A stretch of DNA of 54,703 nt from an uncultured Nocardioidaceae bacterium. GTDB taxonomy: Bacteria > Actinomycetota > Actinomycetes > Propionibacteriales > Nocardioidaceae. How positions within the stretch are numbered: position 1 is the first letter of the stretch; each line of letters opens with the position of its first letter. Shown piece by piece: positions 40,476-43,261 of the stretch. Made by a program: the position numbers and the translations under genes. The notes beneath the pieces were generated by a model. That model did no database searches. It saw only the letters and a program-made list of their open reading frames with translations, and was not told the origin of the DNA. The DNA is taken from NCBI GenBank assembly GCA_902805865.1, contig CADCUK010000007.1:1-54703 (forward strand), given 5' to 3'.

Positions 40476-40892
40476 GTGGACGTGGACATGCAGGGCGACC
40501 CGGAGCCGGTGAACCTTCGGGTGCCGTTCCAGGCACCGTCGGCCTCACTTGTCCGCCACGAGCTCCGTGAATGGCTCGAGGAGAAGGGTTTCCAAGGGGA
40601 GACGGTCGATGACGCGCGCGTCGTCGTCTCCGAGCTTGTCGGCAACAGCGTGCGCCACGCGGCGCCCTTGCCGGTCAACGACATCGTCGTGTCGTGGTGT
40701 CTCGACAACGGGGACCTGGTGATCTCGGTCAGCGACGGCGGGAGCGACTCCACCCAGCCGCACCCGGTGGTCGCGACCCAGTCGGCGATCTCGGGCCGCG
40801 GGTTGAACATCGTCGAGGCGCTCGCCGAGCGCTGGTGGGTCGAGGACGACCGGGGCCGCACGACCGTCCACGTCCGGATCCCCCTGGGGTAG
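40476..40892 (+). CDS. HATPase_c / anti-sigma-type ATP-binding protein (RsbW-like)
   Basis: DDARVVVSELVGNSVRHAAP...LVISVSDGGSDSTQPHPV...SGRGLNIVEALAERWWVEDD. Confidence 0.85.
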   Translation: MDVDMQGDPEPVNLRVPFQAPSASLVRHELREWLEEKGFQGETVDDARVVVSELVGNSVRHAAPLPVNDIVVSWCLDNGDLVISVSDGGSDSTQPHPVVATQSAISGRGLNIVEALAERWWVEDDRGRTTVHVRIPLG

Positions 40893-40936: not shown

Positions 40937-41920
40937 ATGGGAAAGCGATCTCGAGTCAAGACCCGTGACGGGTCCCCCCAGGGTGGCGTGCAGGACGGCG
41001 TGCAGGGCGGGGACGCCGTAGGCCCCCGTCAGCCGTGTCCGTGCGGTTCCGGACGGCGCTACAAGGCCTGCCACGGCAGCGCCTCGGGCCCGGCGCCCCG
41101 GATCGTCAGCCGCCCGTTCGCGGGGATGCCCAGCGAGTGCGACGTCGTCGCCCTGCGCGAGCTCGTGCCTGCCGCCTCCGCCCCGTTGAAGCTGCGTGAC
41201 GGCGCCGACGTGCCGGCGACGGACCGCGCGGTCGTGCTCTGCTCGTTGCTGCCGATGGCCGCACCGGCACTGGTGCGCGACGACGGCACCGTCTGGCTGG
41301 GGCTCCAGGTCCAGCACGGCTTCGGCGACCCCAGCCGTGAGCTCGCAGCGGTGCTCCTCGACGCCCTCCAGGCCGAGCCCGGCTCGATGGTCGGGCTCAC
41401 CGACGCCCCCGGGGACGGGCCGCGGCTCCAGGACCTGGTCGCCGACGAGCCGCTCGAGGTCACTGTCCACGAGGGCTTCGAATTCTGGGTGGCGGACGTC
41501 GACGACCCCACCGGCTCCGTGCACGCCTCGCTGGAGCAGGCGAACGCTGCAGCCACCCCGACCGCGCGGCTGACCTCCGTGGAGGCGGCGTACTGGACCA
41601 ACGTCGGCACCAAGGAGCACCTCCGCTGGGTGCTGCCCCACGAGGAGGACGCCCTGCTGGACGCCCTCGCCCGCGTGCACGCCGACGGGGCGGACCGGCT
41701 CGTCGAGGACGGACGCCTGGTCGGCATGTTCCGCGCCCACGGCCTGCTCGTGCCGGTCTGGGACCTGCCCGTCGGGACCGGACCCGAGGCGCTGGAGGAG
41801 CCGGTGGCCGCGCTCGAGACCGCGCTGAAGGCGGCTCTCGAGCGGTCCGGCGAGCCGCTCACCGACGCCGAGCGGTCGTCCCGGAACGGCCTGGCGAACC
41901 GGCAGGTGACGATCCGCTGA
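40937..41920 (+). CDS. DUF5926 family protein with N-terminal SEC-C motif
   Basis: PCPCGSGRRYKACHG SEC-C motif; remainder matches DUF5926-type actinobacterial proteins by recall. Confidence 0.75.
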   Translation: MGKRSRVKTRDGSPQGGVQDGVQGGDAVGPRQPCPCGSGRRYKACHGSASGPAPRIVSRPFAGMPSECDVVALRELVPAASAPLKLRDGADVPATDRAVVLCSLLPMAAPALVRDDGTVWLGLQVQHGFGDPSRELAAVLLDALQAEPGSMVGLTDAPGDGPRLQDLVADEPLEVTVHEGFEFWVADVDDPTGSVHASLEQANAAATPTARLTSVEAAYWTNVGTKEHLRWVLPHEEDALLDALARVHADGADRLVEDGRLVGMFRAHGLLVPVWDLPVGTGPEALEEPVAALETALKAALERSGEPLTDAERSSRNGLANRQVTIR

Positions 41921-41972: not shown

Positions 41973-42001
41973 TTGTGCGGAGCGGTCGCGAAACATATAG
42001 T
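41973..42001 (+). promoter_or_regulatory. Housekeeping-sigma-like promoter TTGTGC-17 nt-TATAGT
   Basis: ttgtgc (41973-41978), 17-nt spacer, tatagt (41996-42001). Confidence 0.65.
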
Positions 42002-42008
42002 TGGTGAT

Positions 42009-42058
42009 GCCCGATCGTTGTTGTATCCCCCGTCAGCAACGGTCGGGCTTTCATTTTT
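42009..42058 (+). terminator. Intrinsic terminator-like hairpin with C-rich loop and U tract; candidate sRNA/attenuator body
   Basis: gcccgatcgttgttg / cagcaacggtcgggc 15-bp stem (two G-U pairs), loop tatcccccgt, then tttcattttt. Confidence 0.8.
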
Positions 42059-42163: not shown

Positions 42164-43261
42164 ATGATCCGCTTCGACAGCGTGACCAAGGAGTACCCCG
42201 ACGGCACCGTTGCGGTCGGCGGCCTCGACCTGACCGCCCCGGACGGCAAGATCACCGTGCTGGTCGGCCCCTCGGGCTGCGGCAAGACCACGTCGCTGCG
42301 CATGGTCAACCGGATGATCGAGCCGACGGGGGGACGCATCCTCGTCGACGACAAGGACACGGCGAAGATGGACGCTGCCGAGCTGCGCCGCGGCATGGGC
42401 TACGTCATCCAGCAGGCGGGTCTCTTCCCGCACCGCACGGTGGCCGACAACATCGCCACGGTGCCCAGGCTGCTCGGCTGGGACCGGCGCAAGTCCCGCA
42501 GCCGGAGCCTGGAGCTCCTGGAGCGGGTCGGGCTTCCCGGCGAGTACGCCGACCGCTACCCGCACCAGCTCTCCGGGGGCCAGCAGCAGCGGGTCGGGGT
42601 GGCCCGCGCGCTGGCAGCCGACCCGCCGGTCATGCTCATGGACGAGCCGTTCAGCGCCGTCGACCCGGTCGTGCGCGAGCAGCTGCAGGACGAGTTCCTG
42701 CGGCTCCAGTCCGACCTGGGCAAGACGATCCTGTTCGTCACTCACGACATCGACGAGGCGGTGAAGCTCGGCGACCAGGTGGCGGTGCTGCGGGTGGGCG
42801 GCCAGATCGCGCAGGTCGCCGACCCGGCCACGCTGCTCGGTGATCCCCATGACGACTTCGTCGCCGACTTCGTGGGCCGCGACCGGGGCTACCGCGGTCT
42901 CGGCTTCCGGACAGCCCCGGTGCTGGAGCCCTCGCCCGAGCCCACGGTCCGGCTGGGTGCCGGGGTCGACGAGGTCCGCCGGTCGGGCGATCAGTGGCTC
43001 CTGGTCGCCGACGACGACAACCGGCCCCTCGGCTGGGTCGAGCCCAGCCGCATCACGGCGCCGCTGGTCACCGAGGACCTGCACCGGGGCGGCACGGTCG
43101 CCGTCCTCGGCGGCTCGTCGCGAGCCGTCCTCGACGCCGCTCTCTCCGCCCCGAGTCGTCGCGGCGTGCTCGTCGACGACGACGGCCGGCTGGTCGGCAC
43201 CGTGACCCTGGCCGAGGTCGCGGCGGCCATCGAGCAGGCCGTCGGCAGGGGGAAGCGCTGA
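42164..43261 (+). CDS. Glycine betaine/choline ABC transporter ATP-binding protein (OpuCA/ProV-like)
   Basis: VLVGPSGCGKTTSLRMVNRMIEPTGG, LSGGQQQRVGVARALAADPPVMLMDEP; CBS-like C-terminus. Confidence 0.93.
   Translation: MIRFDSVTKEYPDGTVAVGGLDLTAPDGKITVLVGPSGCGKTTSLRMVNRMIEPTGGRILVDDKDTAKMDAAELRRGMGYVIQQAGLFPHRTVADNIATVPRLLGWDRRKSRSRSLELLERVGLPGEYADRYPHQLSGGQQQRVGVARALAADPPVMLMDEPFSAVDPVVREQLQDEFLRLQSDLGKTILFVTHDIDEAVKLGDQVAVLRVGGQIAQVADPATLLGDPHDDFVADFVGRDRGYRGLGFRTAPVLEPSPEPTVRLGAGVDEVRRSGDQWLLVADDDNRPLGWVEPSRITAPLVTEDLHRGGTVAVLGGSSRAVLDAALSAPSRRGVLVDDDGRLVGTVTLAEVAAAIEQAVGRGKR

Follow-up and report, generated by a model that had tools for sequence, protein, structure and literature searches.

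The stretch analysed here (the window) comprises 54,703 nucleotides from a contig of an uncultured Nocardioidaceae bacterium. On its plus strand the gene of a HATPase_c_2 protein (40476..40892, PF13581), which is frequent in the same neighborhood of relatives, is followed by the gene of a DUF5926/SEC-C protein (40937..41920, PF19348, E 8e-119), the conserved upstream neighbor of the element described below, and then by an opuCA-type ABC transporter ATPase gene (42164..43261), which comparison of neighborhoods identified as a variable downstream neighbor. Between the last two, also on the plus strand, lie a -35 box TTGTGC (41973..41978), read in the sequence and with its TTG aligned in all 24 loci from the family, a 17-nt spacer, a -10 box TATAGT (41996..42001), a 15-bp hairpin (42009..42048, arms 42009-42023 and 42034-42048) with the 10-nt loop UAUCCCCCGU (tatcccccgt, 42024..42033), presumed to be the working part, and a T-rich tail tttcattttt (42049..42058), also read in the sequence and presumed to be the termination site. 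The small RNA predicted from this layout would occupy 42008..42058 and be about 45-51 nt long, its start placed by the conserved distance from the -10 box and its end by the tail.

The sequence-only reading had proposed a near-consensus promoter TTGTGC-17-TATAGT, a 15-bp hairpin with this loop and tail, and an opuC-type operon 106 nt downstream. The promoter is present at 41973-42001, the hairpin, loop and tail all follow from 42009, and the ATG of opuCA lies at 42164, 106 nt past the T-rich tail. The wording "near-consensus" suits the -10 box, which has five of six consensus letters, and is too strong for the -35 box, which has three of six.

Properties of the promoter and hairpin

The stem of the window's hairpin consists of 15 pairs, two of which are G-U. 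Its RNA folding energy is -28 kcal/mol, compared with -10.9 +/- 2.6 in 200 shuffled sequences (z -6.7, 0/200), which is a stability far beyond chance. Neither of the standard scans reported the element: the sigma-70 promoter scan missed the promoter at 41973-42001 because the -35 box fits only three of six consensus letters, and the terminator scan missed the hairpin at 42009-42048 because its 10-nt loop is longer than the scan allows. Compared with the usual features of intrinsic terminators, the GC-rich stem is present, while most of 92 non-redundant members collected from relatives have a short, interrupted T tract, with a T content of 60-76% at tail positions 3-5. The shortness of this tract is a point against a small RNA that terminates itself.

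The position of the promoter relative to the hairpin is strongly conserved. Of the 92 members, 89 have a TANNNT motif that ends 5-9 nt upstream of the hairpin (mean 5.0 and maximum 13 in shuffled sequences), and a TTG is found 16-18 nt upstream of the -10 box in 54 of them (shuffled mean 0.26, maximum 3). Since relatives keep the two boxes and also their spacing from the hairpin, the arrangement is not a matter of chance, and a -10 box fixed in 89 members where about five would be expected argues for an independent small-RNA gene. Transcription would start 6-7 nt after the -10 box, which is at the base of the stem (42008/42009), so the predicted RNA would consist of the hairpin and tail alone.

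The flanks of this core hold several further motifs. A few nucleotides past the hairpin a CATG followed by CC is present in 32 of the 92 members (e.g. L002) and in none at a control downstream stretch. The Streptomyces copy linked to DUF5926 has a conserved inverted repeat, GAGATCG...CGATCTC, which flanks the -35 box (L094, L046, L129, L163 and others) and is perhaps the binding site of a regulator. A class-wide operator over the promoter was considered and rejected, as inverted repeats barely exceed those of shuffled sequences and are consistent only in Streptomyces. A second Streptomyces copy possesses a different conserved upstream region, CTCCC, then 18 nt, then TTGTTANNNT (L093, L056, L057, L135, L137, L160 and others), whose sequence suggests another sigma factor or an activator.

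Covariation and the invariant loop were examined at two depths. The alignment of 24 family sequences behind covariance model R1 was made without structure, and in it all 15 pairs form in every sequence, four of them showing changes on both sides. The 24 loci share the hairpin, the TTG at -35 (24/24) and, in most, a TA-containing -10 box, while the sequence between and around these shared parts differs. In 40 diverse members from across the class, 97.8% of cells pair and 13 of the 15 stem pairs have compensatory changes (101 cells versus 30 in shuffles), in an alignment which was fitted to the model and so favors structure somewhat. The signal is lost once the partner column is shifted by one to three positions. 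A number of columns in the stem are nearly free to change provided that pairing is kept, and the loop is fixed: CCCCCGU with the closing C is invariant in 40/40 members, the loop core CCCCCGUC being identical in all of them and the closing G-C pair invariant, and the U which precedes the core is present in 39 of the 40. Conserved U-G pairs and much lower scores on the minus strand indicate that the plus strand is the RNA. The check that had been proposed for the small-RNA reading, covariation in homologous intergenic regions, thus came out in its favor, as these regions keep the promoter, the covarying hairpin and the loop.

Distribution and gene neighborhood

Of 59 related genomes, 24, the window's own included, contained a core of about 40 nt in a blastn search with a 116-base query, at one place in each. 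Covariance model R1 extended this to 115 of 200 Nocardioidaceae genomes and to 129 of 395 genomes of the class, Streptomyces included. In a phylum-wide draw of 298 genomes the covariance model matched 14, ten of the same class and four outside it, the latter all weak (at most 38.7 bits), which suggests that almost nothing of the element exists beyond the class. The remaining 85 of the 200 family genomes, several of them complete, gave no match under strict search filters, and this counts against a stand-alone small RNA; these absences are not firm, since in the large genome searches the filters were tightened and only a small number of candidates was scored in each genome. An origin from plasmids or phages was rejected, the 40-nt core having no match in plasmid and phage collections. 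Two Streptomyces loci (L116:2037-2077 and L117:2035-2069) carry hairpins whose stems are shorter and unrelated and whose loop is the same AUCCCCCGUC; these are possible additional paralogues. At another locus (L120:2042-2225, genome G354) several similar palindromes lie within 200 bases; this genome has up to seven weak model matches, which may represent a repeat family rather than the C-loop hairpin RNA.

The DUF5926 gene lies upstream of the RNA in 23 of the 24 family loci, where the DUF5926 match stops 58-227 nt short of the RNA, and it also precedes the RNA in many other families, as well as in 61 of 80 named loci of the Streptomyces type, 73 of which had enough flank to look. A gene that so often ends on the same strand shortly before a stable stem followed by Ts could simply be using the hairpin as its terminator, the promoter-like sequence being incidental or driving the downstream gene, and the hairpin may indeed serve as a terminator as well. 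That it is nothing more is rather improbable, because termination calls for neither an invariant 8-nt stretch in the loop nor a -10 box held at 5-9 nt upstream of the stem. Moreover, some families have DUF5926 or GDPD facing the RNA in convergent orientation (DUF5926 in L101, L103 and L104), and several loci lack DUF5926, as does the second Streptomyces copy, which has its different promoter next to a DUF2252-like gene (identified by eye).

The downstream side is less constant. The sequence-only reading had offered osmotic attenuation as an alternative, in which the hairpin would be a transcription attenuator of the opuC-type betaine transporter operon. The opuCA gene begins 106 nt downstream in the window and also follows in two congeners, but it is directly downstream in only three of the 24 family loci, all of the same genus. 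Elsewhere in the family, and in the remainder of the class, a different or a convergent gene lies downstream of an unchanged element. Because of this the downstream operon is incidental and the attenuator idea fails; we regard it as extremely improbable. A conserved promoter abutting the hairpin, together with variable or convergent neighbors, marks the element, as far as sequence comparison can tell, as an independent transcription unit.

Relation to known RNAs and possible mode of action

The most probable explanation of these results is that the element represents a stand-alone small-RNA gene family, predicted to be promoter-driven and self-terminated, which is present across much of the class and whose loop would act in trans. 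The reading of the hairpin as a small RNA, which had been put forward from the window, is strongly supported by the sequence of its relatives. As the hairpin is widespread in actinobacteria and public collections of RNA families do not contain it, it is apparently a small regulatory RNA that has yet to be catalogued, with a range from Streptomyces to Nocardioidaceae. Membership in any Rfam family was rejected: at the element in the window Rfam 15 gave only a chance match to mir-341 (E 0.53, far below its cut-off), and none at the element in the loci of nine relatives. A text search of the literature for the loop sequence returned nothing relevant. To our knowledge, few small RNAs are known to be conserved across actinobacteria.

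One member has probably been noticed before. A predicted small RNA of S. coelicolor, ID 341 (Panek et al. 2008, PMC2422843), was reported to be expressed and lies at a distance of 81 kb from 4.5S RNA; it is an uncharacterized prediction of 2008 that was never described as a family. The DUF5926-linked Streptomyces copy is situated 55-101 kb from the SRP RNA (4.5S) gene in ten Streptomyces genomes, it has the same layout as ID 341, with the upstream gene on the same strand and the downstream gene convergent, and the conserved Streptomyces block is approximately as long as the 96 nt reported for ID 341. As the distance to 4.5S, the layout and the block length agree, the two are probably the same gene, a judgment on position and layout. 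Highly expressed and conserved Streptomyces small RNAs with C-rich loops, scr5583 and scr1434, have also been described (Moody et al. 2013, PMC3765725). Judging from their names, they belong at SCO5583 and SCO1434, while the copies of the element lie next to DUF5926 or the DUF2252-like gene. No support was found for identity with scr3920, scr5583 or scr1434.

As to how such a gene could work, its own promoter of the sigma-70 type would start transcription at the foot of the stem, which together with the T-rich tail would stop it about 45-50 nt further on, giving a predicted short transcript that is essentially one very stable stem with a fixed C-rich loop. By analogy with 6C RNA, this loop could then pair in trans with G-rich stretches (complement GACGGGGGAU) of other RNAs, and a small RNA acting in trans through its loop is the most likely mode by that analogy. 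According to a review (PMC8628891), 6C RNA (B11 in M. tuberculosis) acts through its C-rich loops on mRNAs that include panD and dnaB, and it seems to need no chaperone.

The target search covered five congeners and 61 genomes of the family, in which GACGGGGGA or GACGGGGGAT was sought immediately before RTG. Complementary 10-mer sites before start codons amounted to about one match per genome, and in this limited search no conserved start-codon target emerged. Among the site groups shared between congeners, one is apparently internal to a lactate-utilization-like reading frame and another is apparently a repeated coding motif. The lack of a conserved complementary target is a point against a base-pairing small RNA, and it fits the main alternative, that the short RNA is real and that a protein binds its C-rich loop, or is sequestered by the RNA, instead of the loop pairing with mRNA. 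Such a site would also be expected to have its loop, closing pair and loop length all fixed, as they are here. We nevertheless consider protein binding unlikely, given that there is no candidate protein and that 6C, the precedent with similar loops, is reported to base-pair (PMC8628891).

The comparison with 6C RNA, which the C-rich loop had suggested, holds as an analogy and not as membership. Both are actinobacterial RNAs with GC-rich stems and loops that carry a run of Cs, but 6C RNA has two hairpins with six or more Cs per loop, whereas the element is a single hairpin whose five Cs precede GUC. The 6C model (RF01066) had no match in the window at the gathering score and none near the hairpin up to E 10. 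The 6C RNA of the same genome is a separate locus on another contig (G000:C96:9590-9663), and model R1 run at 6C loci gave no match, so that neither model recognizes the other; membership in 6C was rejected on these grounds. AUCCCCC occurs in at least one loop of three of the four 6C loci examined and also in the loop of the element, and for this reason partners shared with, or similar to, those of 6C are possible. We know of no recognized Hfq homologue in actinobacteria. It is a tentative suggestion, which we would not yet favor, that in this class-wide family the hairpin serves at once as the working RNA and as the terminator of that RNA, and that together with 6C it forms one AUCCCCC regulon reading G-rich sites in mRNAs without a recognized Hfq.

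A family with an invariant loop that is absent from Rfam 15 offers a testable handle on how small RNAs find their partners in actinobacteria, and possibly a relative in function of 6C RNA, which is itself still poorly understood; the family's covariance model is offered for annotation. In Nocardioidaceae the 6C genes themselves (L025-L027, including G000:C96:9590-9663) contain a third hairpin, with AUCCCCC in its loop (CCAGCGATCCCCCTCGCTGG), which lies upstream of the two in the Rfam model and is not covered by it. In the window's genome (L026), a short tandem repeat of cttgcacaggttt is situated just past the 6C gene.
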